NCBI RefSeq assembly: GCF_003149375.1
Contig: NZ_QFWH01000002.1
Span: 124,001 to 188,000 of the forward strand
DNA from: Vampirovibrio chlorellavorus
GTDB lineage: Bacteria; Cyanobacteriota; Vampirovibrionia; Vampirovibrionales; Vampirovibrionaceae
DNA: 64,000 bases
Direction: 5' to 3'
Shown here: one piece after another, positions 3,522 through 60,400 of the stretch
Position numbering within the stretch: the stretch's first letter is position 1
Layout: every line of letters starts with the position of its first letter
Program-made: the position numbers and the translations under genes
Notes under the pieces: model-generated
The model's input: only the letters and a program-made list of their open reading frames with translations
The model's database searches: none
What the model was told of the DNA's origin: nothing

Positions 3522-3705
3522 TATTCAATCCAATCTTGTGGGGTAAAGGTAACTGGCCAGGGCTTTGCCTTATCGGGCATTATCGGTAAGAACCGGGGTG
3601 GCGTCAAACTGTCTCTATTTTACAAGGGACGCCTATCGGGGGAAAATAATAAAACGCAGTCTCAAACCTTCAATTTTTTATTGCTTTGCGCAGGGAGTCG
3701 AAAAA

Positions 3706-6700
3706 TTGAGTTCCAAGTTCCCGCCGGTTTTGTTGGTTACTGGCCCTCCCGGTAGTGGTAAAAGCCGTTTTTTAGCCCAGGAAGCCATTCGTCTGCACGT
3801 GCAGGAAGGGCTGCCCCTGTCCAGTCTCTATATGCTGGCGGTCAGTTCGCAGAATCAGTCCCGGTTACAGGCTTACCTGCAATTGGAAAGTCAATTGGCC
3901 GGTCTGGAAGCGGCGAAAGTTCTGTCTGAAATTACGGTGCAAACCGTGGATGCCTTTTGGCTGGCTCGGCTGAATCAGGGGCAGCCTGAAACAAGCCGAT
4001 GGCACTTGCTGAGTGAGCTGGAGAGCCAATCCCTGATTGCTCAAGCCGTGCAAACCATCATTAGCCCTCAACACCCCTTGTTTTCGGCCAGTCAGGATGC
4101 CTCTTTTATTCGGCTGATGGCGAATCTCATTCGGCAATGCCAGGTGCAGGGCTGCTTACCGGAGAGATTGGCAACGTATACGGACCTCTCTGAGGATCGG
4201 GCGGGTTTATTGGGACAGATTTACGCGCAATTCCTGCACTTTTGCCAGCAGGCCCGGCTGTTGACCTACCCGGCGCTGCTGCAAAGGCTCCAAGCTCAAG
4301 GCGCCGTTGTGGCCGCTGACCGGCCCCCTGTTCTACCTGCCCGGCTGTCGGCCCTTTTGATCGATGAGGCGCAGGAGTTATCGTCCGCGCATTACCATCT
4401 GTTGGCCTCGCTGCCGGTAAGGCTGGTGCTGGCGGGTAACCCAACGTTGGGGATTCGCAGCTACCGGGGCGGACAGCCGGACTGCTTTGAGACCTTCTTC
4501 CGGCAGCAGGGTCGAGGTGTTACCCATCAGGTGCAGCAGGCCAATTTGCGGAATAACGCGCCGGTCTTGTCGTTGCTGAATGGGCTGTTGCCTTCGCCTA
4601 TTTGGGAGGAGCAGGCCCCCGATCCGGCGCGGGTCTCCCAGATGCTTCAATTTGGCTATTTTACCGATGCGGCCGCCGAAGCCATCGCCCTGGCCGACTA
4701 CTTGATGGAGATTGTCAGCAAACAGTCGGTTACTGTGACTGATTTTACGGTGGAAGAGGGCACTCGTTCGGCCACTTGGGGGGATTGCGTGGTGCTGTTG
4801 CGTTCCGGGCGGTATAAATCGCACTTGTACGCCGCCTTTTTACAGCGAGGCATCCCGTTCCAGGATGAAAGTTTGAGTGAGGCGGTGCTAGATTTTCAGC
4901 GGGATTTTTACGCCTTGCTGCAGGTGCTGGCTCTGTGGGAACAGTGGGGCCTTCAGCCGGAGCAGTTTGAAGCGCCAGAAACACTGGAAAGCCAAGCCTT
5001 GCAAGCTGTAGCCTCCTCCCCGGAGTGGGCCCTTTCCCTGAAAAATCACAATCGATATTTGCTGCGCTGGTTAGAGGCGGTTCTGCACGATACGGCCCAC
5101 GCGGCGGCGTTGGCCAAACTGACAGCGCCTGTTCAGGACGCCGAACCCGTTTGGCTGCTAGGGCTGTGGCTCAACCCGGAGCAAACTTCTCCCGTGGTTG
5201 TGGAGAGGCTGCAAGTGGTGGTGGCTTTGTATCAACAGTGGTTGGAGCAGGCCGATCCGGGGCAGTTGCTGGATGGGGTCTTACAGGCGCTATCGCCTGC
5301 CGTCACACCGGATGACAACAGCCCTGAGTCGGTGTTGTGGACGTCTGTTCAGCCTGTGCGAAAAGCCTTGGGGCAATGGGGCCAGCGCTTTCAGCAGGCC
5401 ACCGGGCAAGGGGTGTCCTTGCAATTGCTATTGAACCAGTATGAGCAGTTCTGGCAGGCCTCGGCGGCCCCCGAAAAGCAGAATCAGGTTCGCTTGCTCA
5501 GCGTTCACCAGGCGCAGGGGGAGACGTTTCCCGTGGTGGCCATGCCTTTCCTGCAAAGCGAGGAATTCCCCAGTCAGCGGGAAAGCTCGGAGTGGCTCAG
5601 TCCCTCGGCGTTGGAAGCACTGGGCTTGCCCCTCCGGTTTAGCGAAGCCGAAGAGCGGCGTTTGTTTGCCGTGGCGGCCAGCCGGGCCAGTGAACGCCTG
5701 TTTTTAACCTGCCATCAGCAGCAGGAGGCCGAGCGGGTCTTGCCCTCCCCTTACTATATGGCCCTGCTGGCCCAAAAACGGCAGTTCCTGCAATGCCCTT
5801 CGGCGGCGCAGGTGTGCGCCTGTGAGTCTGGCGGTGCTTCGGTAGCGGCTTGTGAGGTGGATTTTTGTAATCAGCCCGCTCGGTTACAGGCTTTACAGCC
5901 AGAGGCATCCTTTGAAAGTGATTTGCCGGATTTTCAAACCGATTACCAGAGCCACAGCGCCTGGGCCCAACTCCAGCCGCAAGCCCCGGAACCGGTTTTT
6001 GAGGCGGGCGTGGATCTGTCCATCAGCCCCACGGCCATTACCCGCTACATGCAGTGCCCCCGGCAATACTATTACAAGCATTTGCTGGGCCTGAAAGAGC
6101 CGGGCTCGGTGGCGGCCAGTCTGGGCACGCTGATTCACAAGGTGATGGAAGCCTTCAACAGCCAAACCCCGACGGGGGAGCATACCCCTCAGCGCTTGCG
6201 GGAAGTGGCCGAGGCCTTCTTTGGATTTGAGGATGATGCTCATGCCTTTTACATGGCGGGCTTTGGGGAGCGGGAACGCCAGACCTTGGCCCAGATGAGC
6301 CCGCTGGCTCTGCATGCGCTTCGGCAGTCTTTGCTCGCTTCCATTGAGGACTTGACCGAGAAAGGGTATTTTGACCGATACGGCAGCCTGAAGGCCATTT
6401 ATGCCGAACGGGAGCTGAAAGAGGTCGCTCTGGCCGGGTTGGAACGGTGTCGCTTGAGCGGAAAAATGGACGCCTTGGTTCAATTGGCCGATGGGCGCTG
6501 GGAAGTGGTGGATTACAAAACCTACGGGCCCAGCAAGTACGGTACCCGCTGGGACTTGTGCGAGCAGCGCTTTGAGGCCACCGTGGACGCCTTGCCGGAC
6601 GAGCCGGAGCTGCCCCATCACCAACGTTTTGCCAACAAGTTAAACGCGGCCTACCCCATTGATTATCAATTGCCCCTGTACTATTGGGCCGCTCAGCAGG

Positions 6701-6981
6701 ATCCGGCGCTTGCGGGCGGTATGGCCGGAATTTCCCTGCAACTGGTGCGCCCCCAGTTCCCGGATAATCCCGATCAGGGTTCCATCCGGCTGGGCTTGGG
6801 CGCCGATGTGCTGGATGCCCAGCGAGAGCATGTGTTACGGGATATTCAGAGCCATGTGATTGACCCGATTCTCTCGACGACACACTTTCCACCGGTACCG
6901 GAATCGGGGGCTTGCGATTACTGCCCCTACGTGGGCATTTGCGAGCAGGGTAACGCCGCAGAGGGGGAGGGTTTGGAGTAA
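3706..6981 (+). CDS. AddB-like SF1 helicase/RecB-family nuclease with iron-sulfur cysteines
   Basis: Probable subunit of an AddAB-type double-strand-break resection machine. I choose TTG at 3706 (1091 residues) because CAGGGAG lies eight bases before it and the Walker A box starts about ten residues in; an open frame extends upstream to 3565 but reads as non-conserved. In order: Walker A GPPGSGKS (about 13), motif II LLIDEAQE (about 217), motif V SVHQAQGETFP (about 596), motif VI AASRASERLF (about 650). A C-terminal PD-(D/E)XK nuclease follows, with GTLIHKVMEAF, GKMDAL, VVDYKT and QLPLYYW. The cysteines CPRQYYYKHL and C-x2-C-x5-C (CDYCPYVGIC) match the AddB/Cas4 4Fe-4S staple. Unlike classical AddB, Walker A and DEAQ look intact. 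Its stop overlaps the start of the next helicase by one base. Confidence 0.87.
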   Translation: MSSKFPPVLLVTGPPGSGKSRFLAQEAIRLHVQEGLPLSSLYMLAVSSQNQSRLQAYLQLESQLAGLEAAKVLSEITVQTVDAFWLARLNQGQPETSRWHLLSELESQSLIAQAVQTIISPQHPLFSASQDASFIRLMANLIRQCQVQGCLPERLATYTDLSEDRAGLLGQIYAQFLHFCQQARLLTYPALLQRLQAQGAVVAADRPPVLPARLSALLIDEAQELSSAHYHLLASLPVRLVLAGNPTLGIRSYRGGQPDCFETFFRQQGRGVTHQVQQANLRNNAPVLSLLNGLLPSPIWEEQAPDPARVSQMLQFGYFTDAAAEAIALADYLMEIVSKQSVTVTDFTVEEGTRSATWGDCVVLLRSGRYKSHLYAAFLQRGIPFQDESLSEAVLDFQRDFYALLQVLALWEQWGLQPEQFEAPETLESQALQAVASSPEWALSLKNHNRYLLRWLEAVLHDTAHAAALAKLTAPVQDAEPVWLLGLWLNPEQTSPVVVERLQVVVALYQQWLEQADPGQLLDGVLQALSPAVTPDDNSPESVLWTSVQPVRKALGQWGQRFQQATGQGVSLQLLLNQYEQFWQASAAPEKQNQVRLLSVHQAQGETFPVVAMPFLQSEEFPSQRESSEWLSPSALEALGLPLRFSEAEERRLFAVAASRASERLFLTCHQQQEAERVLPSPYYMALLAQKRQFLQCPSAAQVCACESGGASVAACEVDFCNQPARLQALQPEASFESDLPDFQTDYQSHSAWAQLQPQAPEPVFEAGVDLSISPTAITRYMQCPRQYYYKHLLGLKEPGSVAASLGTLIHKVMEAFNSQTPTGEHTPQRLREVAEAFFGFEDDAHAFYMAGFGERERQTLAQMSPLALHALRQSLLASIEDLTEKGYFDRYGSLKAIYAERELKEVALAGLERCRLSGKMDALVQLADGRWEVVDYKTYGPSKYGTRWDLCEQRFEATVDALPDEPELPHHQRFANKLNAAYPIDYQLPLYYWAAQQDPALAGGMAGISLQLVRPQFPDNPDQGSIRLGLGADVLDAQREHVLRDIQSHVIDPILSTTHFPPVPESGACDYCPYVGICEQGNAAEGEGLE

Positions 6982-9725
6982 TGAGTCAACAGGATCTGTT
7001 TGAAGTGCCTGTATCCGAACCAACTGGGTCATCCGAAGTGCAACACGTGGGCAAGCCTTCGGGCGATAATTTCCTGAAGGGTCTGAACGCGCGGCAGCAA
7101 GAGGCGGTCATCACCCCTATTGATGAGCCTTTGCAGGTGTTGGCGGGCGCCGGAACCGGCAAGACGGAGCTGATTTCCCGGCGCTTTGTGAAACTGGTGC
7201 AGGATTTGCGCCAACAGGGCGTGGCTCGTCCGGAGGAAGCCATTGTGATGGTGACCTTTACCAAGGACGCCGCACAGGGCATGCGGGAGCGGATTCATCG
7301 TCGCCTGCTGGAAAATGGGGAAGGCGGTCTGGGCCCGGATACCTGGATTAGCACCTTTCACCAGTTTTGCATGCGATTGTTGCGCTTACACGCCGTGGAT
7401 GTCCACTTGCCGCCGGATTTTGTCATTCTCAACCCGCTGGACCAGCAAGTGTTGTTCAACCGGGTGGTTAAAAGCGTCTTGCTGGGGGAGAATCATTCGC
7501 TCGGGCCATTGTTGGCCCAGTTTGGCTTGTCCGGGCATTTGCCGCCGGATGTCTTGAGTCTGGCCTCCCTGCAAAATTGCGGGCTGGCGGATGTGGAAAG
7601 CACCTTGTCTCCCGAGCGCTTGTTCGCCCTGATTACCCGCATCAAAACCGCCGGGCTTTCCCCGCTGGAGTTTTATGAAACCGCCCTGCGCCAGTCCACG
7701 GCCCTGACCGAACGGTTGATCGATTTGCCTGTGCCCCATGATCCTGACGCGGCCAAGCTGGAGAACCTGTTGGCCAAGGTAGATGCGTGGACGGCCAGTC
7801 TGGCTCCCTGGGCCCATGGCAGTTGGCAACCCATTCAGGCGGCTGAGCGCAAAGCGGAAGCCAAGGGCAAGAAGCTGAGCCCCGGCAGTTACAAGGACGA
7901 GGTGGAGGGCTTGGCCAGGTTTTATCTGGTGCCCAAAACCTTTGAGCCTGCTTTCCCCGATACGGATTTATTAACAGCGGTACTGGCGGTTGAAACCCGC
8001 CTGATCGGCATTGTGGCTACGGTTTATGCTCTATATCAGGCCCGTCTGCTGATGGAAAAGGCCTGCGATTTCGATGATCTGATCAATCACACCATTCACC
8101 TGCTGGAACGCCGCCCGGATTTGCGCCAACGGTACCAGAACCAGTTTGCCGCGGTCATTGTGGATGAGTTTCAGGATTCCAACGGTAGCCAGTTGCGCTT
8201 GCTGAGCTTGATCATTCGGGAGCGGGCCCGAAATCTGACCGTGGTGGGCGATGAGAAGCAGTCCATTTACGCTTTTCGGTTTGCCCAGCCGGAGAACTTA
8301 AGGCTGATTTTCGGGAAGCATCCCCACAAGACGGTGAATCTGCAAACCAATTACCGATCCTTGCCGCCGGTGCTGGCTGTGGCCAACCAGTTGACCGAGC
8401 AAATTGCCCAAGGCCCCAATCAACAGTTGGAACCCTGTGAGAAAAACGCCGGGGTTGCTGAGCCCAAAGTGGTTTGGCTGGATCTGGATGAAATGATTGA
8501 AAAGGAGAACGGTCAGCCGGGCAAAAAAACCATTGAGGAACAAAAAGAGCGGGAAGCCCGCTTTATCGCTTTGGAAGTGGCCCGTCTGGTGGAGGCCGGG
8601 GAGTGTCGCTTCTCGGATATTGCGGTGCTGGTGAAATCCCACGCCAAGGCGGAGCGCATTCAAGCTCAAATGGCGGCGTTGGGGATTCCCTCCATTAAGC
8701 CCAAGAATCTGGGCTTTTTTCAGGAGGCAGTCATTCAGGATGCTATGGCCCTGCTGCGTTTAATGTGCGACTTGAGCGATGAGTTGTCACTGGTGCGGCT
8801 TTTGCAGGCCAAATTGAACCATCGGCAACTGCGGGCCTTGGTGACCCTGAAAGACAGCTTGCCCAATCCCTCTCCGGAATGGGCGCATCGCAAGGCCACT
8901 TTGTTCGATGCCTGTCTGCACTTGCACGGTAATCCAGAGGCTTGCCCTCGTTTGCCTGCCCTTGTGGCTCAGGCGGTAGGCGATCTGGCCTTTCAGCTAT
9001 TGGCCATCCGCAAGCGTAAGGCCCGGTTATCAGCGGTACAGTTGTTTCAGCAATTGGCGGGCGTCGTAGGATTGATTTCCTCCCAGACGCCGGTGTGGCA
9101 GCAAAAGCAACAGCGCATTACCCTGCGCATGTTTGAGAAATTGCTGTATTTATTTGGGCAAAATAAGCCCATTCAGCCCACGCTGGATGAGGTGCTGGAG
9201 ATTCTAGAGCAGTACGCCGCCAATCCCAATCAGGAATTGCCGGTGAAAGAGGAACTCTCCGGCGAGGACGCCGTGCGCATTATGACCGTGTTTGCCTCCA
9301 AGGGGCTGGAGTTTCCGGTGGTGTTTGCCGCTTATACCGATTTGGGCGGCAACCGGGGAGGCAACGATACTACTCTGATTTTTGATCCGCAATATGAGGG
9401 CAAGGCGGGCTTTGGCCTGATTCTGGGCAAGGTGAACGGTCTGGATAATTTGAAGAAGGAAGTTTATCAGAAGTGCTGGCAAGCCCCTCGGGCAGGAACG
9501 GAGGCGCAGCGGGTGTTTTATGTGGCCCTCACTCGGGCCATGCGAAAGCTGTATGTGATTCGTAGTAATCACGCCCCAGACTGGACAGCCCCGGATGAGT
9601 ACCCGGCGGCGTGGCGCACGGTTTTGTCTGAAACCCGTGATGAAGCAGTACTCTCGGAGCTTTATTGGGAGGCCGACACGGAGGCTTGGCGTCAGAAAAT
9701 GGGCCTTGTGCAGGCTTTGCCGTAA
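6981..9725 (+). CDS. AddA-like UvrD/REP-family helicase without a nuclease domain
   Basis: A 914-residue SF1A DNA helicase, the likely motor partner of the upstream AddB-like protein; the two overlap as TAATG. All motifs are present: Q-like LNARQQEAV, Walker A AGAGTGKT (55-62), Ia TFTKDAAQGMRERI, Ib STFHQFCMRLLR, II VIVDEFQDS (about 392), III VVGDEKQSIYAFR, IV LQTNYRS, V FASKGLEFPVVF (about 772), VI FYVALTRAMRKLYVI (about 846). It stops some 50 residues after motif VI, whereas bacterial AddA continues into a RecB-type nuclease. In this pair nuclease activity would therefore come only from the upstream subunit. A lone UvrD/PcrA is less likely given the coupling and the large insertions. Confidence 0.88.
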   Translation: MSQQDLFEVPVSEPTGSSEVQHVGKPSGDNFLKGLNARQQEAVITPIDEPLQVLAGAGTGKTELISRRFVKLVQDLRQQGVARPEEAIVMVTFTKDAAQGMRERIHRRLLENGEGGLGPDTWISTFHQFCMRLLRLHAVDVHLPPDFVILNPLDQQVLFNRVVKSVLLGENHSLGPLLAQFGLSGHLPPDVLSLASLQNCGLADVESTLSPERLFALITRIKTAGLSPLEFYETALRQSTALTERLIDLPVPHDPDAAKLENLLAKVDAWTASLAPWAHGSWQPIQAAERKAEAKGKKLSPGSYKDEVEGLARFYLVPKTFEPAFPDTDLLTAVLAVETRLIGIVATVYALYQARLLMEKACDFDDLINHTIHLLERRPDLRQRYQNQFAAVIVDEFQDSNGSQLRLLSLIIRERARNLTVVGDEKQSIYAFRFAQPENLRLIFGKHPHKTVNLQTNYRSLPPVLAVANQLTEQIAQGPNQQLEPCEKNAGVAEPKVVWLDLDEMIEKENGQPGKKTIEEQKEREARFIALEVARLVEAGECRFSDIAVLVKSHAKAERIQAQMAALGIPSIKPKNLGFFQEAVIQDAMALLRLMCDLSDELSLVRLLQAKLNHRQLRALVTLKDSLPNPSPEWAHRKATLFDACLHLHGNPEACPRLPALVAQAVGDLAFQLLAIRKRKARLSAVQLFQQLAGVVGLISSQTPVWQQKQQRITLRMFEKLLYLFGQNKPIQPTLDEVLEILEQYAANPNQELPVKEELSGEDAVRIMTVFASKGLEFPVVFAAYTDLGGNRGGNDTTLIFDPQYEGKAGFGLILGKVNGLDNLKKEVYQKCWQAPRAGTEAQRVFYVALTRAMRKLYVIRSNHAPDWTAPDEYPAAWRTVLSETRDEAVLSELYWEADTEAWRQKMGLVQALP

Positions 9726-9917
9726 CTGTCATAGGGGAGCGTCCCGGGTTTTATGAATGGGGTTGCTCTTTAAAGGTACGTAATTTTTTGAGCCTGTCAG
9801 TTTGTGGGTGTTTGTTCGCTTAATTGAAGATACGATATTTTTAGTTTTAAATTTCAGTACAGTTAGGCATTTGTGCCTTTAAATATTGTGGGTGTTTTGG
9901 GTGGGGAGTTTTGCAGT

Positions 9918-10808
9918 ATGTTAAGTCATTTGAGTCAGTTCCAACGGCCTTTTGTCATTATTGCCCATCGGGGGGCGACCACCAATCAGGATCTCAGTCG
10001 GGTGACTCCCGAAAATACCATGCCCGCCTTTCTGGAGGCTCAGAAGCAAGGTGCGGCCATTGAGCTGGATGTCATGACCACCCGGGATGGCACTGTGGTG
10101 GTGTATCACGACTTTAAGACGGGCCGGACGTTTCGTCTACCCGAGCAGCAAAAGCCCGTCCGGCAGACGGATTGGCATGAATTGCAGAAGGCCCGGTTTA
10201 ATGCGGCGGCGCATGAACGGGAGATTCAGCGCATGATGGGGCCATCGGGCAATTATAAAAGTCCGCAGTGGTTTGAAGGCTTGCAGGTGCCCTCTCTGGA
10301 CGCCGTGTTAACGGATTTTCCCAATACCCGGTTTTGTATCGAGCTGAAAACGGTGAATCCCTTTGCCAGTGGGCAGTTGGAACGGAAGGTGGCCCGCCTG
10401 ATTCGAGAGAAAAATTTATACGATCGGGTCACGGTGCTGAGTTTTTCCCCGGTCAGTTTACGGAAAATCAAGCGTTACGATCCACAGATTAAAACGGCCC
10501 TGAATGTGCAGGTTCCGGATCTGGTCAAGCAGTGGCCGGTTCTGCTGAAAGGGTTTATCAAGCTCTACGCGCAGCGATGGGTCGGGGTGGACGCCATTCA
10601 GCCCAGTTATAGCGATACCACCCCGGCATTGGTTGAAATCGCCCATTCGGCAGGCCTGCCGGTGGTGGCCTGGGCCAGCAGCGAGACTCGGGAGGAGGAG
10701 CGGCAAAAATTTCCTCAGTTAATGGCTATGGGCGTGGATGGCCTGATTACCAATGCCGTTGATTTGTTGAACGCAGCCGTGAAGGATCGCCCTCTGCCCT
10801 TGTGTTAG
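9918..10808 (+). CDS. Glycerophosphodiester phosphodiesterase
   Basis: Hydrolyses glycerophosphodiesters to glycerol-3-phosphate and an alcohol, recycling phospholipid head groups. The ATG at 9918 is preferred (296 residues): GGGGAG lies nine bases upstream and the catalytic region follows at once. A GTG at 9873 in the same frame is less likely. The family's core is clear: IIAHRGATT (His17, Arg18), then PENTMPAF, IELDVMTTRDG with the acidic metal ligands, VYHDFKTGR with the second catalytic His, and CIELKTVN. The C-terminus has VVAWASSETREE and MGVDGLITNAVDLL, typical of the TIM-barrel end. No signal peptide is seen, so it is probably cytoplasmic. Confidence 0.93.
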   Translation: MLSHLSQFQRPFVIIAHRGATTNQDLSRVTPENTMPAFLEAQKQGAAIELDVMTTRDGTVVVYHDFKTGRTFRLPEQQKPVRQTDWHELQKARFNAAAHEREIQRMMGPSGNYKSPQWFEGLQVPSLDAVLTDFPNTRFCIELKTVNPFASGQLERKVARLIREKNLYDRVTVLSFSPVSLRKIKRYDPQIKTALNVQVPDLVKQWPVLLKGFIKLYAQRWVGVDAIQPSYSDTTPALVEIAHSAGLPVVAWASSETREEERQKFPQLMAMGVDGLITNAVDLLNAAVKDRPLPLC

Positions 10809-10938
10809 ACTTTTAAGGCTGTCGACATCGTGTCGCGAGTCTTTTTGTCCTCCGTCTGGGCGGGCGTTCCGGCAAAGTGCCGGGCCTGCTTCCAACCTTT
10901 TGTACACCTCCTTTTAAAAAGAAAGATTATGGATACCT

Positions 10939-11835
10939 ATGGCACTTACATTTCAGGAGTTGGTCGCTAATTTAAACCAGTATTGGGCCCAGCAGGGCTG
11001 TGTGGTGCAGTTTCCCTACGACAGTGAAAAAGGCGCCAGCACCATGAACCCGGCTACCTTCTTGCGGGTGCTGGGGCCGGAACCCTGGAACGTGGGTAAC
11101 GTGGATCCGTGCCGTCGTCCTACCGATGGCCGGTACGGGGAAAACCCCAACCGCTTGCAGCACTATTTTCAGTATCAGGTCATTATGAAGCCTTCCCCGG
11201 ACAATATTCAGGATCTGTATCTGAAAAGTCTGGAAGTGCTGGGCATCAATATTGCTGAGCATGATATTCGTTTTGTGGAAGACAACTGGGAATCGCCCAC
11301 CCTGGGGGCTTGGGGCGTGGGCTGGGAAGTATGGCTGGATGGCATGGAAATCACCCAGTTTACCTATTTCCAGCAGGCTGGTGGTTTGGATATTCATCCG
11401 ACTGCCGTGGAAATCACTTACGGTTGCGAGCGGATCGCCATGTACCTGCAGGATGTGGACAGCGTCTATAAGCTGAAGTGGAATGAAACGCTTACGTACG
11501 GCGATATCTACCTGCAGAACGAGATTGAGCAGTCCAAGTACAACTTTGAAGTGTCCAATCCGCAGACCCTGATGCAGTTGTTTGATCTGTACCGGGGCGA
11601 GGTGGAGAACGCCTTGTCTCACCAGTTGGTGCTGCCCGCTTACGATTACGTGCTGAAATGCTCTCACGCCTTTAACTTGCTGGATGCCCGTGGCGTCATC
11701 AGCAAGGATGAGCGCACCAATTACATTTTGCGCATTCGGCGTTTGGCGGAGCAAGTGGCCAAGCTGTATGTGCAGCAACGGGAGGCGCTGGGCTTCCCCC
11801 TGCTGAAGCACCAACCCGCCCCGCAGTTGAATTAA
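10939..11835 (+). CDS. glyQ: Glycyl-tRNA synthetase alpha subunit
   Basis: Catalytic alpha subunit of the bacterial alpha2-beta2 glycyl-tRNA synthetase; it activates glycine and with GlyS charges tRNA-Gly. The 298-residue protein matches GlyQ along its length: [86 protein letters not shown], and [13 protein letters not shown] good AAGAAAG-like site sits upstream. The beta subunit glyS is not adjacent: the next gene is nfeD-like, so glyS must lie elsewhere. Confidence 0.98.
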
Positions 11836-11901
11836 GAAGTGCTTCTCCCTGTTCTATCAGTTACAATAGGAGAAGAGCAGGATTAGAGGTAAAGCAGACT
11901 G

Positions 11902-12372
11902 ATGGAAGTGGGCATGTCAAACGTCATGCTGGGCTGGGTGGCACTGGCCTTGCTGTTGGGAATTATCGAAGTGTTTACCGTGGGCTTCTTCGTGTGCTTT
12001 TTTGCCCTCGGCGCGCTGATAGCTGCACTGGCCTCCCTGTTTATTCCGGGCCTGTTGGGGCAAACGCTGGTTTTCGTGCTTTCTTCCCTGTTAATGGTAT
12101 GGTGGGCCCGCCCGGTGCTGACCAAAGCCTTCAAAGTGGGCAATCGCCCTGCCGTGGAGTCTAACGTGTCGGCCTTGCTGAATACGGTGGTGCTGGTGTT
12201 AGAGCCGGTGGACAAGTACACGGGTAAGGTCAAGGTCACCCATACCGGGGAGGTCTGGACGGCTTATCTGGCTAATGAGGATGGAGAAACCATTCCGGTG
12301 GGGCAGGAGGCCTTGATTGTGAAGGTGGACGGGGCCAAACTGGCCGTGACCCCCAAGCCGTCACCGTCCTGA
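11902..12372 (+). CDS. NfeD-like membrane protein
   Basis: A 156-residue short NfeD protein, normally the partner of an SPFH/stomatin-type protein in membrane quality control. The N-terminal 75 residues hold three hydrophobic segments (around residues 9-30, 33-50 and 52-70) with LGIIEVFTVGFFVCFFALGA. The C-terminal 80 residues form the small beta-barrel domain, recognisable by GEVWTAYLANEDGETIPVGQ and ALIVKVDGAKLAV, close to the family's usual end. It lacks the ClpP-like protease domain of long NfeD proteins. The SPFH partner follows after 84 bases. An internal ATG at 11914 is an alternative start. Confidence 0.9.
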   Translation: MEVGMSNVMLGWVALALLLGIIEVFTVGFFVCFFALGALIAALASLFIPGLLGQTLVFVLSSLLMVWWARPVLTKAFKVGNRPAVESNVSALLNTVVLVLEPVDKYTGKVKVTHTGEVWTAYLANEDGETIPVGQEALIVKVDGAKLAVTPKPSPS

Positions 12373-12456
12373 GTGCTTTGTGGGCAATCGGTTTTACAAC
12401 CGTTTTGGGTGATTTCAAGCGCATTTTTTGAATCGAGCGATAGGGAGTTTCTATAA

Positions 12457-13425
12457 ATGGAAGTACTGGGCGGTTTTCTGGTTTTTATTCTCATCATTTT
12501 CTCTCTGGTGGTGGTGGGTTCCTCGGTGCGTATTGTGCGCCAGTCTACTGTGGGAGTGGTAGAGCGTTTGGGGCAGTACCTGGCCACGCAAGAAGCTGGG
12601 ATTCGGTTGCTGGTGCCTTTTCTGGATAGCATTCGCATGGTGGATATGCGGGAGCAGGTCTACAATCTGCCCTCTCAGCCGGTGATTACCAAAGAAAACG
12701 TGACCATGAACATTGACGCCATCATCTACTTTCAGGTGACTGACCCGGTGCGGGCCACCTATGAGGTGGTTGATTTAATTACCGCCGTGGAAAAGCTGGC
12801 CCTGACCACCATGCGGAATATCATTGGGGAAATGACCCTGGATGAAACCCTGGCCAGCCGGGATGTCATTAACTCCAAGTTGCAGCACGTGCTGGACGAC
12901 GCCACGGGCAAGTGGGGCTTAAAAGTGAACCGGGTGGAAGTGAAGGATATCGATCCGCCCCGGGATATTGTGGATTCCATGCAGAAGGAAATGCGGGCCG
13001 AACGGGAAAAACGGGCCATGATTCTGACCGCGGAAGGCGAGAAGCAGTCCGCGATTTTGCGATCGGAAGGGGAGCGGGAAGCGGCCATCCGCAATGCCGA
13101 AGGCGTCCAGCAGGCCATGATTTTGGAGGCCGAAGGCCACAAGCAGGCTTCCATCAAAAAAGCGGAAGGGGAAGCCGCCGCCATTCGCAGTGTACAAAGC
13201 GCCGAAGCGGAAATGGTCTATAAAATGTTCACTTCTATTAAAGATGCCAACCCGTCTAAGGAAGTCTTGCAGGTGAAGTATCTGGAATCGCTGGAAAAAG
13301 TGTCTCAAGGGCAATCCAACACCCTGTTTTTACCGTATGAGTCCATTGCCTTTATGGGTGCTTTGGCCGGTTCGGTGCGGGCGGTACAAAATCAGGCGGA
13401 AAAAGGCGCTGGCGATCGGGGCTAG
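12457..13425 (+). CDS. SPFH/Band 7 (stomatin-like, QmcA type) membrane protein
   Basis: A 322-residue stomatin-family protein with one N-terminal membrane segment (residues about 5-25). The SPFH domain follows, with VRIVRQSTVGVVERLGQY, LVPFLDSIRMVDMREQVYNL, and NVTMNIDAIIYFQVTDP. After VNRVEVKDIDPPRDI comes a long Ala/Glu-rich coiled coil with repeated AEGE-like blocks (about residues 175-250), then the C-terminal segment LEKVSQGQSNTLFLPYE, which is highly typical of this subfamily. Such proteins oligomerise into membrane rings and pair with NfeD, here encoded directly upstream. A sirtuin gene follows after 53 bases and may be in the same operon. Confidence 0.94.
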   Translation: MEVLGGFLVFILIIFSLVVVGSSVRIVRQSTVGVVERLGQYLATQEAGIRLLVPFLDSIRMVDMREQVYNLPSQPVITKENVTMNIDAIIYFQVTDPVRATYEVVDLITAVEKLALTTMRNIIGEMTLDETLASRDVINSKLQHVLDDATGKWGLKVNRVEVKDIDPPRDIVDSMQKEMRAEREKRAMILTAEGEKQSAILRSEGEREAAIRNAEGVQQAMILEAEGHKQASIKKAEGEAAAIRSVQSAEAEMVYKMFTSIKDANPSKEVLQVKYLESLEKVSQGQSNTLFLPYESIAFMGALAGSVRAVQNQAEKGAGDRG

Positions 13426-13478
13426 CTATCGTAGAATGATAGCCAGAGAAAATGGTGCCAAACAAGGAGTAACCCCTC

Positions 13479-14273
13479 TTGCCCGATTTGGCCATTCTGC
13501 ATAAAGCAGTTCAAGCGCTCACACATTGCCACCAGACTCAAGGCAGTCTGGTGGTTTTGACTGGGGCGGGCGTTTCCAAAGAGAGTGGCATTCCCACCTT
13601 TCGGGATGCCCAGACTGGACTGTGGGCCAACTACAAGGCCGAAGATTTGGCCACCCGGGAGGGTTTTTTGAGTAACCCGGCTATGGTGTGGGACTGGTAC
13701 GACTTTCGCCGAAATACGGTGTGGCAGGCCCAGCCCAACGCCGCTCATCAGGCCCTGGCCGATTTGGAAACCCTATTTCCCGCTTTCACCCTCATCACCC
13801 AGAATATCGATAACCTGCACCAGCGGGCGGGTAGCCAGACCGTACTTGAATTGCACGGCAATATTTTTCGCCACAAATGCCTGGATCACAATCACCCGGT
13901 CAGTTTGGCGCTACTGGCCGATGCGGAAGTCTCTCCGCCACGTTGTCCGGTGTGCAACGCCTGGGTGCGTCCCGATGTGGTCTGGTTTGGGGAAATGCTG
14001 CCGCCTCAAGTGCTGGACAGGGCTTTTCTCGCTGCCGAACATGCCTCGGTGATGCTTATTGTGGGTACCTCCGGGGTGGTGCATCCGGCGGCCAGCCTGC
14101 CCCAGATCGCCAAAGAGGCCGGGGCGACCGTGATTGAAATCAACCCGGAGATGAGCGCATTCACCCCCTTCGTTGTGGATCACTTTTTGCAAGGGCCAGC
14201 GGCGGCGGTGCTGCCAGCCTTGCGATCGGCTTTGGCCCAAAAATTGGGTCTTGTGGAGGCTTCCCATGGCTGA
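13479..14273 (+). CDS. Sir2-family NAD-dependent protein deacylase
   Basis: Removes acyl groups from lysines using NAD+. The start is TTG at 13479, supported by AAGGAG nine bases upstream. The 264-residue protein has the NAD-binding GAGVSKESGIPTFRD (about residue 29), TQNIDNLHQRAGS, the catalytic ELHGNIF, RPDVVWFGEMLP, and VGTSGVVHPAASLP. The zinc knuckle is slightly odd: the usual first C-x2-C reads C-x2-H (KCLDH), while the second pair is CPVC, so the site would be Cys3His. The end overlaps the histidine kinase start by eight bases, suggesting coupled translation with a two-component pair. Confidence 0.93.
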   Translation: MPDLAILHKAVQALTHCHQTQGSLVVLTGAGVSKESGIPTFRDAQTGLWANYKAEDLATREGFLSNPAMVWDWYDFRRNTVWQAQPNAAHQALADLETLFPAFTLITQNIDNLHQRAGSQTVLELHGNIFRHKCLDHNHPVSLALLADAEVSPPRCPVCNAWVRPDVVWFGEMLPPQVLDRAFLAAEHASVMLIVGTSGVVHPAASLPQIAKEAGATVIEINPEMSAFTPFVVDHFLQGPAAAVLPALRSALAQKLGLVEASHG

Positions 14274-15420
14274 GTCGTTTCCTTTGGATGCTTTTGCTCT
14301 GGATGATTTGGGCGCGTTACCCTTGCTGGAAAGTTTAACCTCCGGGGCTATGGTGTGCGACGCGGCTGGACAGGTACTGTATGTTAATCCGGTCCTGCGG
14401 CAGTTGTTGGGATCACCGTCTCTGCCAACAGTTACCCGCCTGAACGATTGGATTCAGCCACTCCCCAAGGTGGATTGCGCCTTTTGTCTGGGGTTACCGG
14501 ACGGGGAGCCGACCCCGCTGCACAGTGGCTTTTTGCGATCTGCAGCCCAGCCAGCCCAACCGGAGGCTTTGAAAGTCAAGATCAAGCACAGCCCGCTGGA
14601 TCATGGCAGTGTGTTGACGCTGATCGACCCATTTTCGGAGGATACCACACTGACGCAGGCCCATTCCGATTTTGTAAGTACCGTCAGTCACGAGTTTAGA
14701 ACCCCCCTGACCAGCATCAAGGGCTTTGCCGATACCCTGCTGCGCTATGGGGGGCAGTTGCCGGATGAGGAAAAACGACGTTTTATCAGCATTATCAAGG
14801 ATCAGGCGGATCGTTTGATTCGGTTGGTGGAAAACTTATTGGCCGCTTCCCGGCTCAGCGCCGGGCGGGTGGAGTTGAGTTACCGGCCCATTCCCCTGAA
14901 AAAGCTGCTGGAAAAGACGGTGGAGAGCGTGCGGGCTAAGATCATGGCCCAGCAGTCTACCGTCCCCCCTCGTATGTTTCATCTGAGCGTACACCCGGAA
15001 TCGATTGAAGTATGGGCGGACGTGGACAAGCTGGAGCAGGTGTTCATCAATTTACTGGATAACGCGGCCAAATATTCGCCGGAGGGCACCCTGGTCACTG
15101 TTCGGGCGGAGTTTCTCCCGGAAGATGACACTCAGGTGCGCATTGTGGTGCAGGATCAGGGCCCGGGCATTCCGGCGGAATTGCTGCCTAAAATCTTCAC
15201 CCAGTTTTACCGGGTGGAAAGCCCTCTGAAGCAGCAAGTGGAGGGCACCGGTCTGGGCCTATACATCACCCAGTCCCTGACCACGGCCATGGGGGGGCGG
15301 ATTTCGGCGGAAAGCACCCCGGGTCAGGGCAGCAGCTTTACCGTTATTTTTCCGGCGGCCACCCCGGAGCGACAAGCCATGTACCAGCGTCGGCTGTCCG
15401 CCTCGGAGGTGGAGCGATGA
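14266..15420 (+). CDS. PAS-type sensor histidine kinase without membrane segments
   Basis: A 384-residue soluble histidine kinase. ATG 14266 is chosen because GGAGG lies seven bases upstream. Residues about 18-125 look like a single PAS-like sensory domain (GAMVCDAAGQVLYVNP) containing a C-x2-C (CAFC, about 71-74). HisKA follows with the phosphoacceptor in TVSHEFRTPLTSIKGF (His142). The ATP-binding domain has the N box INLLDNAAKYSPEG, the G1 box VQDQGPGIP, the F box FTQFYRVES, and the G2 box GTGLGLYI. The stop overlaps the start of the next gene as ATGA, so it is likely co-translated with that regulator. The stimulus cannot be read from the sequence. Confidence 0.94.
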   Translation: MAESFPLDAFALDDLGALPLLESLTSGAMVCDAAGQVLYVNPVLRQLLGSPSLPTVTRLNDWIQPLPKVDCAFCLGLPDGEPTPLHSGFLRSAAQPAQPEALKVKIKHSPLDHGSVLTLIDPFSEDTTLTQAHSDFVSTVSHEFRTPLTSIKGFADTLLRYGGQLPDEEKRRFISIIKDQADRLIRLVENLLAASRLSAGRVELSYRPIPLKKLLEKTVESVRAKIMAQQSTVPPRMFHLSVHPESIEVWADVDKLEQVFINLLDNAAKYSPEGTLVTVRAEFLPEDDTQVRIVVQDQGPGIPAELLPKIFTQFYRVESPLKQQVEGTGLGLYITQSLTTAMGGRISAESTPGQGSSFTVIFPAATPERQAMYQRRLSASEVER

Positions 15421-55467: not shown

Positions 55468-58400
55468 TTGGCGGGCTTGCAAGGGCAAGTCTCAAGGGCA
55501 CGTCCGGAAGCGATGTTATACGTGGAAGGCCCGTTGGGCTCTGGTAAAACCGGTCGTCTGGTGGCGGAAACCAGTCGATTGCTGCAAACCGTCCCGGCGT
55601 CCTCGGTGCTGGTTCTCTGTAGCAACCATGCCCGTCAGCAAAAATTTATTGAGCGCCTTCTGGAATCCCGGAAGCAGGCGGTGGCCCAACTGCCCATTTA
55701 CACCTACGCCGGTTTTGTGCGTAATACGTTGTTTAACTACTGGCCCCTGGTGGAGCAGGAAATCAGCCGCACCCTGAAAAAAGGCGCTGCGGTCATTCGC
55801 CCGGAATTATCCGGCCTGGAGGACAGCGAGCTGATTTTAAAATGGCTGCTGGCCCGCTTGCGCAAAGAGTCCGAGCAAAAGGGACAGGCCGTTTTCGAGA
55901 ACTTTCCCGGCTCGGATCAGCATATTTTAAAGCAACTGGTGCGTCGCCTGCGCCTGCGCTCGGAGAATCTGCTTTCCCGCAAGGACATGCAGGAACGCTC
56001 TATCTTGATGAACGAGATGTGCCACCCGGAAGTGAGTTGGCTGGAACAGCAGTTTGATATTGAGAGTTACCTGTTGCGGGTGTTAGACCCCAACAAGCAG
56101 CTCGATATTTTCAACAGCCTGCTGAAGAAGGACAACGCCCTGTCCACTGGGCTGAAAGGCGAGATTCGGCATTTGATTGTGGATGATGTGGATGAAACCA
56201 TTGTGGCCCAGCAGCGGCTCATTGAATTTTTAAGCCCGGAGCTGGAAACGCTGGTGTTGGCGGCGGATGTGGATGGCGGCTCCCGGCGGGGGTATTTAAA
56301 CGCCTATCCTTATGACTGGAATGCCCTGAAAGCCTTGCGACCCGGGGAGACGGTGGTTTTAACCCGAGAGGACAGCGCTTATCAGGCCGGACAAGCCCTA
56401 TTGGCCAACTGGAAGCGTACGGAAGGCTTTTTGCCCATGCCGCCCATGGTCAAGCTGGACGATGGCTTTATGACCCGGGTGGAGCTGCTGGAACAAGTGG
56501 TGGACGATGTTCTGGAAGCGCTGGAGGCGGGTTACAGTCCCGGCGATTTTTGTCTGGTACTGCCCAAAACGGATTTTCTGAGTTTTCATCAGTTGCACAG
56601 TCGCCTTAGTCAGCGAGGCATTCCGGTGCAGTTGTTGTCAGGCACCAAGCGCCCCAGCGATAATCCCAAGTGCAAAAGTTTTATTTCCCTGATTCAGTGG
56701 GCCAATGCCGCACAGTGGAATGTCTATCCTTCCCGGTGGGAAATTAAGACCATCCTGATGCAGGGTCTGGGTTTTCAGCATTTACCCGATATTTCCGGGG
56801 AGGGGCTGGATCAGTTGTCTCAAGCGGTGGGCGATTGGCTGGGCAGCAATTCGGAAGGCTTTTACCCCCTGCCGCCGCTGGAAGTGCTGCCTTTTGCCCT
56901 GAACGGCACTGCTTTATCCCGCTATGAATTGCTGGGGCAATGGTTGCAAAAGGCACCCGCCCTGGGGTTTGATCAACAGCTTTATTCGGCTTTTAAGGAA
57001 TTGCTGGCCCCTTGTGCCACGGAGCGGGATGGCTACGCGGATTTGAACCGTATTATTCAGAGCTATTTACGGCAGCGGGAAATTTATAAAGGGCTGACCC
57101 GATCGGGGCAAGCGCCGGATACGGTGGCCGGTGAGGATTTTAACCGCTGGTGGCTGGAGCAGGTGAAAAGCGGCACTATGGCCGATACGCCTGAAATGCC
57201 GGAGGCCGTGCAGCCAGACGCCCTGATTATTGGCACGCCTCAAAAGATGATTGATTTGGAAATTTACCGCAAAGTGCAGTGCTGGCTGGATGTCAGTGCC
57301 CGGGAGTGGGCCCGCAGTGACAATGCTCCGCTGTATAACGCCTGGGTGCATTCGGCGGTGTGGGATGGCTCTAATACGGCCTTCAGCGAGGAATTTAACG
57401 AGGCGGTCATTCGCACTCGGGCGGGGCATATTACCCGTTCTCTCATGTTGTTGGCCACAGAAAAGATTTTGGCCTACGCCAGCGATCTGGACGATTTAGG
57501 GGGAACGCACATGGGCTTGTTAAAACCGCGCTTGCTGAATGTACCGGAACTCACGCAGGATTTGCAGGCGCTGGAGCGAGCGGTACTGCGGGCGGATCAG
57601 CAACCCATTCTGGCGTATCAGGCTGGCACCATGGCCATTAGTGCCGTTCCCGGTGCGGGCAAAACCTTTGTGAACGTGGAATTGCTGCTGGAGTTGATTC
57701 AGCGGGGCACACAACCCGATCGCATTCTGGTGCTGACCTATATGGACAGCGCCGCCAAAACCCTGCTGGGTCGCTTGAAAAAGAAGCTGGCCGGGGTGAG
57801 CAATCAGTTGCCGGTGGTGTCTACCATTCACAGTTTGGCCTTTCGCATTCTGGCGGAAAACGATCATGCCGTGCTGGCCGGATTTTTACCCGATGATATG
57901 ACCATACTGGATGATTACGGGCGGGGCGAAATCCTCAGTAAAGTGGCCTTGCTCACCCAGCCGGAATCCACCAAAAATGTGATGGACTGGCAGCGGGCCA
58001 TTGATCGGGGTATGAACCACTGCAAAATGTTTGGCATCACCGAAGCCGCCATTCAGAAACACATTGAGAGCCAGCCCGGTAATTTTCGGCTGGCGGAATT
58101 TTTGCCCGCCTTCAAGTTGTATAATCACGAACTGCACCACAGCGGCTCGCTGGATTTTACGGATTTAATCACCAGAGCCGTGGATATTTTACGGTGTTTT
58201 CCCGATATTCGGGAAAAATATCAGCGGCAATTTGCCTATATTATCGAGGATGAGGCCCAGGACTCTTCTCGCCTGTTGCAGGAATTTATCGCCCTATTGG
58301 GTGGTGAAAATCCCAATTTAATTCGCACTGGCGATACCAACCAATCCATCACCACCACCTTCAGTTCCGCCGATACTGCCGTGTTTCGGGATTTTGTCAA

Positions 58401-59667
58401 AACCGCGCACGTGCCGGTTCACATGGTTCAAAGCGGACGCTGCGCCCCAGAAATTATCGCCCTGGCCAATTTCTGGATGCGACAGGCCAGTCAGCTTCCG
58501 GGGCTGGAACAAGCCTTTGAGCCAGTGGATATGCAACCCGTACCCGGACAAAACCCGGCTTTGTTGTATGCCCCCGCCGCCGAATTGTTTGATCTGGACA
58601 AGATGGAAGAGAGCTGGCTGGTGGAGCGCATTCAGCAAATCCGCTCTGAAGAACCGGAAGCCGCCATTGCCGTTTTGGTGCGCACCAATTCGCAGGTTAA
58701 CCGGGTCACCGGGTTGTTACACCAGGCCCAAATCCCGGCGGTCAGTTTGAGTGAGCAGTTGAACGTGAATCCGGTTTTTTCCTTCATCGTCTGCACCCTC
58801 AAGCTACTGGCCTCGCCTTCCGATTTAGCCCTGCAAAGTCAGTGGTATCAGTTGCAAGTGGAACGCTCTGGTTTGCCAGAGTCTCCTGCTCGCAAGGGCC
58901 TGATGGACAGCCAGCCCTTGCTGTATCAATCGCCGTTGAATTTGGATGATGAAACGCTGCGGCAGTGGTATTACGATTTTGTTGACTTCAGTCGGCAAGC
59001 GGCGGGAGGGAATGTCAGCGCCCTGGTGGCCCGCATCGTGGATCGGTTTTGCACGTCTGTGGCGGATCGCAGCAACGGATATTTGTGCGCCTTGATGGCT
59101 CAGGATATCTTGAACGCTTTTCAGCATTTGGTGCATTTATCGCCGTTGGAGATTGTGCTGCACCAGTTTGAGGCTTTTCAAAAATCCTGGCGGGGCAAGA
59201 AGGGCTTTGGCGAAGTATTGGCTCAAAACGCCAGTCAGGTGGTGCAGGTGATGAGCATGCACAAGTCCAAGGGGCAGGAATTTGACGTGGTGTTTATGCC
59301 CTTCTTGCAGGCGGAAACCTTTCCGCATGAGGTCGGTAGCATTCGCTTTGATGAAACGGATAAACTGGTTCAGGAGCTGGATCGCATTCACTTCAAGGGG
59401 CAAGGGCAATTGCTGGAAGAGCGTTATCAGGAAAATAAAAAGCGGGAAAAAATTGAAGAGGAAGCCCGATTAATTTATGTGGGCCTGACCCGGGCCAAGC
59501 GCGCTTTATACCTTTCAGCGCATTTGCAGACCATGACCCGCTATAACAAAATTCGGAAAGTTGAACCTGCCGCGGTTTTTCAAACCCTACACGCCAAATT
59601 GAATCCGCCGCTGAATAATGTGGTTCCGATTGGGGATGGGGAGGTTGAAAGTGCCCAGGCCACTTGA
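55468..59667 (+). CDS. Giant tandem SF1 helicase protein (AddB-like half fused to AddA-like half)
   Basis: A 1399-residue protein with two helicase folds in one chain. The start is uncertain: TTG 55468, or ATG 55513 (15 residues later). The first half (to about 690) keeps a Walker A box GPLGSGKT (about 22), but motif II reads LIVDDVDET (about 235) and motif III is unrecognisable, so it is probably inactive, like AddB/RecC. The second half is intact: AVPGAGKT (about 727), TIHSLAFRIL, IIEDEAQDS (about 925), RTGDTNQSI, SMHKSKGQEFDVVFMPF (about 1261), IYVGLTRAKRALYLS (about 1337). There is no nuclease; one is encoded by the overlapping next gene. It could be a one-chain AddAB-like motor for resection or defence. 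Confidence 0.85.
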   Translation: MAGLQGQVSRARPEAMLYVEGPLGSGKTGRLVAETSRLLQTVPASSVLVLCSNHARQQKFIERLLESRKQAVAQLPIYTYAGFVRNTLFNYWPLVEQEISRTLKKGAAVIRPELSGLEDSELILKWLLARLRKESEQKGQAVFENFPGSDQHILKQLVRRLRLRSENLLSRKDMQERSILMNEMCHPEVSWLEQQFDIESYLLRVLDPNKQLDIFNSLLKKDNALSTGLKGEIRHLIVDDVDETIVAQQRLIEFLSPELETLVLAADVDGGSRRGYLNAYPYDWNALKALRPGETVVLTREDSAYQAGQALLANWKRTEGFLPMPPMVKLDDGFMTRVELLEQVVDDVLEALEAGYSPGDFCLVLPKTDFLSFHQLHSRLSQRGIPVQLLSGTKRPSDNPKCKSFISLIQWANAAQWNVYPSRWEIKTILMQGLGFQHLPDISGEGLDQLSQAVGDWLGSNSEGFYPLPPLEVLPFALNGTALSRYELLGQWLQKAPALGFDQQLYSAFKELLAPCATERDGYADLNRIIQSYLRQREIYKGLTRSGQAPDTVAGEDFNRWWLEQVKSGTMADTPEMPEAVQPDALIIGTPQKMIDLEIYRKVQCWLDVSAREWARSDNAPLYNAWVHSAVWDGSNTAFSEEFNEAVIRTRAGHITRSLMLLATEKILAYASDLDDLGGTHMGLLKPRLLNVPELTQDLQALERAVLRADQQPILAYQAGTMAISAVPGAGKTFVNVELLLELIQRGTQPDRILVLTYMDSAAKTLLGRLKKKLAGVSNQLPVVSTIHSLAFRILAENDHAVLAGFLPDDMTILDDYGRGEILSKVALLTQPESTKNVMDWQRAIDRGMNHCKMFGITEAAIQKHIESQPGNFRLAEFLPAFKLYNHELHHSGSLDFTDLITRAVDILRCFPDIREKYQRQFAYIIEDEAQDSSRLLQEFIALLGGENPNLIRTGDTNQSITTTFSSADTAVFRDFVKTAHVPVHMVQSGRCAPEIIALANFWMRQASQLPGLEQAFEPVDMQPVPGQNPALLYAPAAELFDLDKMEESWLVERIQQIRSEEPEAAIAVLVRTNSQVNRVTGLLHQAQIPAVSLSEQLNVNPVFSFIVCTLKLLASPSDLALQSQWYQLQVERSGLPESPARKGLMDSQPLLYQSPLNLDDETLRQWYYDFVDFSRQAAGGNVSALVARIVDRFCTSVADRSNGYLCALMAQDILNAFQHLVHLSPLEIVLHQFEAFQKSWRGKKGFGEVLAQNASQVVQVMSMHKSKGQEFDVVFMPFLQAETFPHEVGSIRFDETDKLVQELDRIHFKGQGQLLEERYQENKKREKIEEEARLIYVGLTRAKRALYLSAHLQTMTRYNKIRKVEPAAVFQTLHAKLNPPLNNVVPIGDGEVESAQAT

Positions 59668-60400
59668 ATTTACCCAGATTTCCTCCGATGCCTTTAAATC
59701 CTGGAGCCGATGCAAACGTCAGTTTTTTTACAAGCACGTTAAAAAAATGCAGTGGCCCAGCGATATTCAGCATTTTCGGCTGGGCCGGGACGTGCATAAA
59801 TTGCTGGATTATCAGGCTCGGGGGCTGGATTGCAGCCTTCTACTGGAAAACGCCCCCATGGATGTGCGGGTGAGCTGGCAGAAGCTGATGGCGCATCCTG
59901 TGGCGCATTTACCGGTGATCGCCAACGAGTGGGCCTTTCACGTGCCCATGCCCACCAGCCAGGGATATACGGAGTGGTTGACCGGACGAATCGATCGGGT
60001 GGCTCGCCGGGAGGATACGGTGCTGGTGATCGACTGGAAAACCGGAACCGGGGTGCCACGCAATCCGGAAGTGGACTGGCAAACCCGCTTGTATTTGTTC
60101 GCCTTGGTGGAAGTGGCTCACACGCAATCCGCGGCGGATTTGAATTTGAACTGGCATGGGCCCCTTCAGCCGGAGCAGGTGCGGTTTGTATACGTGGAAG
60201 TGAAGGCCGATAATCACTCTCCGGTGCGGGAGGTGGTTCTGGATTACACTGCGGCCAAGCACGAGGCCACCCGGCAAACCCTGTCCGCCATTGTTTCGGC
60301 CATGGCGGTGGAAGAATCCTATGACTTGCCGGACAATCGTCAGTGCCCCGATAAGTTTTGTGCTTATCGAACCATTTGCGGTATCGATAGTTTAAATTAA
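59651..60400 (+). CDS. RecB/Cas4-like PD-(D/E)XK nuclease with four iron-sulfur cysteines
   Basis: GTG 59651, seven bases after GGGGAGG, gives 249 residues; it overlaps the helicase gene by 17 bases. Nuclease motifs in order: FRLGRDVHKLL (His), GRIDRVARRED (Asp), LVIDWKTGTG (D-x-K), and WQTRLYLFALVE (QxxxY). Cysteines: SRCKRQFFYKH near residue 15, then QCPDKFCAYRTIC at the end (C-x4-C-x5-C), the AddB/Cas4 cluster arrangement. It equals the C-terminal nuclease domain of AddB, but is a separate protein. With the fused helicase it would make a two-polypeptide helicase-nuclease. A Cas4 role is unlikely because no CRISPR or cas gene is near. Confidence 0.9.
   Translation: MPRPLEFTQISSDAFKSWSRCKRQFFYKHVKKMQWPSDIQHFRLGRDVHKLLDYQARGLDCSLLLENAPMDVRVSWQKLMAHPVAHLPVIANEWAFHVPMPTSQGYTEWLTGRIDRVARREDTVLVIDWKTGTGVPRNPEVDWQTRLYLFALVEVAHTQSAADLNLNWHGPLQPEQVRFVYVEVKADNHSPVREVVLDYTAAKHEATRQTLSAIVSAMAVEESYDLPDNRQCPDKFCAYRTICGIDSLN

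Follow-up and report, generated by a model that had tools for sequence, protein, structure and literature searches.

A fused tandem SF1 helicase gene overlapping a PD-(D/E)XK nuclease gene in Vampirovibrio chlorellavorus, a putative helicase-nuclease with a different chain division

Genes at the locus

The DNA analysed, here called the window, is a stretch of 64,000 nucleotides from Vampirovibrio chlorellavorus, on the forward strand of which a long open frame is overlapped at its 3' end by a gene encoding a nuclease. The frame 55468-59667 was confirmed to be open, with 1399 codons counted from TTG, and to contain two SF1 helicase folds in one chain, as claimed in the first-pass annotation. 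The length of 1399 residues given there did not stand, since ATG 55513 is the conserved start of the fused chain in an alignment with 21 relatives and gives a protein of 1384 amino acids. The following features were assigned.

55513..59667, + strand: fused tandem SF1 helicase gene, 1384 aa (open frame reaches back to TTG 55468; 21 relatives aligned)
55513..57537, + strand: N-terminal half (N-half), inactive SF1/UvrD-like motor (PF00580, profile matches, hhalign)
55528..55551, + strand: Walker A of the N-half, GPLGSGKT (alignment of relatives)
56182..56196, + strand: motif II position of the N-half, DDVDE in place of DExQD (alignment of relatives)
57538..59664, + strand: C-terminal half (C-half), intact PcrA/UvrD-like motor (UvrD-helicase PF00580, E 1e-45; PcrA profile, 5e-64; motifs conserved)
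57652..57666, + strand: Walker A of the C-half, GAGKT (motif conservation)
58249..58263, + strand: motif II of the C-half, DEAQD (motif conservation)
59638..59644, + strand: ribosome-binding-site-like GGGGAGG, 6 nt upstream of the nuclease GTG
59651..60400, + strand: separate PD-(D/E)XK nuclease, 249 aa from GTG, with four cysteines (PF12705, E 1e-23)
59651..59667, + strand: overlap of the fused gene and the nuclease gene, 17 bp

The N-half and its stand-alone homologues are hereafter called the dead motor, and the set of dead motor, live motor and separate PD-(D/E)XK nuclease is called the trio.

The open frame of the nuclease reaches back to ATG 59618. Homologues support GTG 59651 as the start: one close relative (L038) has ATG at the same codon and the nuclease of another (L040) begins with an identical 17-bp overlap. 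Together with the GGGGAGG, these bear out the overlap of 17 bases first read from the DNA alone. The two genes overlap by 1-35 bp in most relatives, and the 17-bp overlap suggests coupled translation. The description of the product as a four-cysteine PD-(D/E)XK nuclease was also supported, residues H49, E93, D115, D128-x-K130 and Q144 and cysteines C21, C232, C237 and C243 being invariant in 17 sequences. The best profile match was to AdnB (3e-10), and the protein is distantly related to nucleases of the Cas4, exonuclease V and MGME1 types. From the four invariant cysteines, and without metal data, it is inferred to be of the Fe-S type. Two solved PD-(D/E)XK proteins, 9iab and 9iac, were considered as orthologues and rejected; they were distant matches only, and no paper describing them was found.

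Frames similar to csrA, fliW and the SAH-hydrolase gene ahcY, identified by sequence, flank the locus on the other strand. No further gene of the system was found adjacent to the fused gene and nuclease pair in the window.

The live and dead motors

Across 22 relatives, the GAGKT, DEAQD, motif III (GD.NQ) and HKSKG sequences of the C-half are invariant and motif VI (YV..TRA) is nearly so, in agreement with the earlier reading of an intact second SF1 motor. By profile score this motor is nearer to PcrA/UvrD/Rep than to AddA.

Against a PF00580 cut-off of 23 bits, the N-half alone scored 27, and a match was obtained for 17 of the 22 family members. Comparison of N-half and C-half profiles with hhalign gave 98.9% probability over 448 columns, and a broad N-half profile, with cyanobacterial relatives added, matched PcrA (3e-11) and, over about 500 residues, AdnA (8e-10). 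The N-half has lost motifs II, III, V and VI. At motif II, DDVDE here corresponds to DDxDE across relatives; motif III (GD..Q) is replaced by AD..GGSRRGYLNA here and by D..GG.RRGYLNA across relatives, and the region of motif V has the sequence GTPQK.ID here and TPQK.ID across relatives. An intact Walker A is seen in Vampirovibrio, a degenerate one in Gastranaerophilales and in one genome of family f3. The N-half is thus, as judged from its sequence, a degenerate member of the SF1/UvrD fold. The proposal that the first half is a helicase fold with motifs II and III lost was upheld by sequence profiles and not by structure: AlphaFold models were too poor for a fold search, with a mean pLDDT of 38 for the N-half (single sequence) and 41 for the nuclease (three near-identical sequences).

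In comparisons with four relatives, dN/dS was 0.04-0.14 for the N-half and 0.06-0.19 for the live half. The N-half is under strong purifying selection, and so is kept as a functional component. Neither the N-half nor the helicase and nuclease pair is named by any model of NCBIfam, Pfam or PADLOC, and no known, named family with another role, which would have refuted the first reading, was met.

Distribution of the fused form

A whole-protein query recovered the same long frame in the genus, the family, the order and family f6 of the class. Matches to the N-half profile were found in 203 of 289 class genomes (200 of 244 among those of good quality), in most cases as part of a long open frame (about 1260-1500 aa). 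The fused chain is present as a single copy in nearly all sampled genomes of the Gastranaerophilales type and is found in most Vampirovibrionales, the order names being assigned from Vampirovibrio records and from the known make-up of the group. The N-half was not found in families f4, f5, f7, f8 and f9 among the genomes listed. One f6 genome has an additional N-half copy (G192:C18:23549-25357), in a shorter frame with 1132 aa, which may be a paralogue or contamination.

At the class loci inspected the N-half is fused to the live motor, and, where contigs allow, the nuclease gene is adjacent, usually overlapping and otherwise only a few bases away. The same order of fused helicase and separate nuclease, sought in other genomes as the first reading had proposed, is thus conserved across the class. 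An assembly artefact or recent frame fusion was ruled out, as the arrangement recurs across the class; neither a chance frame nor a recent fusion is compatible with the presence of the N-half in 203 of the 289 genomes together with its low dN/dS.

Family f3 (L125-L127; G011, G013, G015) still has fused motors, with the trio nuclease at a different locus. Three Gastranaerophilales genomes of genus g74 in f6 (G178, G202, G255) and genome G160 keep the fused chain and have no recognisable trio nuclease, and only weak nuclease matches were obtained in other g74 genomes. The nuclease of g74 and G160 has been either lost or rapidly diverged.

Separate-gene forms and the origin of the fusion

Elsewhere in the phylum the N-half homologue stands alone, as a protein of about 610-770 aa. 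Three genomes without PsaA (G297, G302, G321) carry dead motor, live motor and nuclease in that order as three overlapping genes. The dead and live motor genes are adjacent in G293, also PsaA-negative, in which the trio nuclease was looked for and not found. Eight genomes bearing PsaA, the criterion used here for a photosynthetic genome, have each trio part at its own locus, three loci in all. A cemA-type gene adjoins the dead-motor gene at five of the six photosynthetic loci inspected (L113, L115, L116, L118, L120); as a functional partner of the dead motor it was judged unrelated.

Plasmids were searched with a dead motor from a cyanobacterial genome, which identified the 56-kb plasmid pSR56 of Salinibacter ruber M8, outside Cyanobacteriota. 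The full three-gene system and recJ are located at 7473-15356 (L153), in the order hypothetical protein, ATP-dependent helicase, PD-(D/E)XK nuclease and recJ, and the first three genes match the dead-motor, motor and nuclease family profiles at 341, 297 and 156 bits, respectively.

The fused C-halves form one clade in the motor tree (support 100), which lies with the motors of the operons and of cyanobacteria and is separate from canonical UvrD, and the fused chains fall on one side of a branch with support of 92 in the N-half tree. The simplest account is that the fused form is derived and that one fusion occurred, in the line of Vampirovibrionales and Gastranaerophilales.

Co-occurrence and other helicase-nucleases

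Outside the class, 203 genomes were compared: 130 have both dead motor and nuclease, 62 have neither, and 2 and 9 have only one of the two (Fisher 1e-39, uncorrected for shared ancestry). The two genes co-occur despite being unlinked in the photosynthetic genomes inspected. At three distant loci (pSR56, G302, G323) recJ adjoins trio genes, ordered in G302 as in Salinibacter and divergent in G323; these neighbours were confirmed by RecJ_OB and DHH domains.

The co-occurrence bears on whether the fused chain might be functional alone, beside an unrelated Cas4-like gene used, for example, in CRISPR adaptation. The location of the f3 nuclease at another locus and the lack of a recognisable nuclease in some g74 genomes are compatible with this, but dead motor and nuclease are strongly associated even when unlinked, the gene overlap is conserved, and the nuclease does not reach the cut-off of the Cas4 model TIGR00372 (27 vs 65 bits), so that the explanation seems hardly tenable. 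Cas4 of CRISPR systems was rejected as an identity for the nuclease on this score, its neighbours being the csrA-, fliW- and ahcY-like frames with no cas genes.

Class genomes outside f7 and f8 (n = 69) were compared for the trio and for long helicase-nucleases. All 21 genomes without the trio carry a long helicase-nuclease, 18 of the 48 with the trio have no other helicase-nuclease, and none of the 69 lacks both (p 0.0007, uncorrected for shared ancestry). Families f7 and f8, which are without the long type, were excluded after the data had been seen; genome G008, whose short frame is ambiguous, was also left out. The six near-complete f8 genomes (G022, G027, G037, G041, G046, G050) gave neither a PF12705 match nor a trio and appear to be without helicase-nucleases of this type. 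Family f8, with neither system, is a real exception, and the function is dispensable in some lineages. A whole genome with recC-recB-recD at 1010770-1020113 (G353) had no trio part that could be found; replacement of the trio by RecBCD was examined in this genome only.

This distribution also bears on another explanation, according to which the system is a replication-fork or lagging-strand factor (Dna2/Bad-like) that trims flaps or stalled forks and does not resect double-strand ends. The closeness of the live motor to PcrA/UvrD/Rep and the distant relation of the nuclease to Cas4, exonuclease V and MGME1-type enzymes are in its favour. A dead motor paired with a live one is, however, typical of end-processing enzymes (AddAB, AdnAB, RecBC), and the distribution complements that of long helicase-nucleases and, in one genome, that of RecBCD; a fork factor is considered distinctly improbable.

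A second helicase-nuclease pair is located at 3565-9725 of the window, consisting of a 1138 aa SF1 helicase with a C-terminal PDDEXK_1 domain followed by a 914 aa UvrD-like helicase without a nuclease domain. The pair is AddAB/AdnAB-like, yet scored far below the AddA and AddB model cut-offs. With a long helicase-nuclease pair in the same genome, the trio is not the sole candidate there.

Comparison with known systems

AddAB combines an inactive helicase partner, an active helicase and a four-cysteine nuclease of the Fe-S type. By its sequence motifs, the window system resembles AddAB/RexAB in having an inactive and an active SF1A motor and a four-cysteine nuclease. Unlike in AddAB, in which the nuclease is fused to the C-terminus of a motor, the nuclease here is a separate gene and the motors are fused to each other; addA_Gpos reached 103 bits where 708 are required, and none of the AddB models matched the N-half. 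The chain partition, proposed at the outset to be the reverse of that in AddAB, was borne out and is conserved across relatives. RecBCD is similar in that a live SF1A motor, RecB, is paired with a dead SF1 partner, RecC, and in having a RecB-family nuclease, but the nuclease is separate in the window, the RecB model scored far below its cut-off, and neither RecC nor RecD is encoded in the genes adjacent to the pair. AdnAB also has two UvrD-like motors and a RecB-family nuclease, and matched the N-half (AdnA) and the nuclease (AdnB) as given above, with PcrA equal or better for the motors. Each AdnAB chain bears its own C-terminal nuclease (PMC13309787), whereas the window system has its motors in one chain (two in relatives) and a single separate nuclease. 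Gabija (GajAB) was rejected, as the sole adjacent partner is PDDEXK_1 and not GajA, and the GajB score of 160 bits reflects the generic UvrD fold.

The closest precedent is an unfused UvrD/pfam12705 predicted operon in Clostridiales with a repair-like context (Hudaiberdiev 2017, PMC5704561). Such UvrD and Cas4-like pairs and fusions share the UvrD helicase and pfam12705 nuclease with the system described here, but consist of two genes, with no dead-motor third component mentioned in the section seen (PMC5704561).

In S. elongatus, RSF1010 is better maintained and natural transformation is improved when a Cas4-like nuclease, UvrD or RecJcy is lost, and likewise on loss of ago, rpoD2 or a PD-(D/E)XK gene; UvrD has a paralogue there, PcrA (PMC10653904). 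Motor, nuclease and RecJ are also the set linked here by gene neighbourhoods, and the screen fits the trio, although orthology is only inferred. The S. elongatus set is, however, tied to Argonaute and not to a helicase-nuclease complex, and no dead-motor gene is named in the passages seen (Taton 2023, PMC10653904). S. elongatus is also said to encode AddAB, the genes not being specified in the section seen (PMC10269773), and part of the trio may already be labelled AddAB in that species. No description of the three-part set or the fused form was found in the open literature, most subscription papers being outside the scope of the search, and their novelty is provisional.

Proposed role

The pair of genes probably specifies a helicase-nuclease that processes DNA ends in the manner of AddAB/AdnAB, with a different division of chains. 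By analogy with AddAB, AdnAB and RecBC, the PcrA-like motor of the C-half would move along a broken DNA end and unwind it, while the dead motor of the N-half, joined to it in cis, would grip the separated strand and guide or scan it, gripping and guiding being the part ascribed to AddB, RecC and the motor domain of AdnA. The separate Fe-S nuclease, its synthesis coupled to that of the motors, would be docked at the exit, where it would cut the unwound strand to leave single-stranded DNA for recombination with RecJ as a possible partner. Linear or stalled foreign DNA would be degraded as a by-product. Beyond domain identity and genetic linkage all of this is inference: a physical complex, its activity and polarity, the resection of ends and the role given to the dead motor.

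The first-pass annotation had left the choice between resection and defence undecided, and the evidence favours a housekeeping role in end processing. A dedicated defence system would serve to destroy plasmid, phage or transforming DNA entering the cell and would not be concerned mainly with repair. The S. elongatus losses that improve RSF1010 maintenance and transformation could be read in this way, as the combination of motor, nuclease and recJ matches the trio and its neighbours, and the Salinibacter copy is plasmid-borne. That the S. elongatus genes are trio orthologues is only inferred, however, and RecBCD and AddAB degrade foreign DNA too. Nearly all Gastranaerophilales moreover have the system, in single copy and apparently by vertical inheritance, the flanks in the window are housekeeping-like, and no relative was found in viral and phage collections. 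Defence as the main role is considered unlikely, although it cannot be excluded.

End processing by a helicase-nuclease remains the preferred reading, and under it the trio may be the missing stand-in for RecBCD/AddAB in much of the cyanobacterial phylum. Several model cyanobacteria, among them Synechocystis PCC6803 and Nostoc PCC7120, reportedly have neither recB(Ec) nor recC, and recBCD is reported in most P. marinus (PMC5101192). Double-strand-end processing is thus unsettled in these model cyanobacteria, for which the trio is a concrete and widely conserved candidate, open to deletion in laboratory strains. From the fused Vampirovibrio form it is predicted that the three proteins of cyanobacteria, whose genes lie far apart, make one complex; the form would also mean that helicase-nucleases can be redivided between chains while the set of dead motor, live motor and nuclease is kept.

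On a broader proposal the evidence is about evenly balanced, namely that an unnamed fourth class of bacterial helicase-nuclease acting on double-strand ends exists beside RecBCD, AddAB and AdnAB, in which a lone Fe-S nuclease is combined with one dead SF1 motor and one live, PcrA-like motor and acts with RecJ. Its three genes would have been present early in Cyanobacteriota and also occur in Rhodothermota, with the dead motor in Fusobacteriota; the motors would have fused once in Vampirovibrionales/Gastranaerophilales, and the system would replace RecBCD in most photosynthetic cyanobacteria. A dead-motor homologue without trio neighbours is carried by pILYOP01 of Ilyobacter polytropus, at 239 bits.
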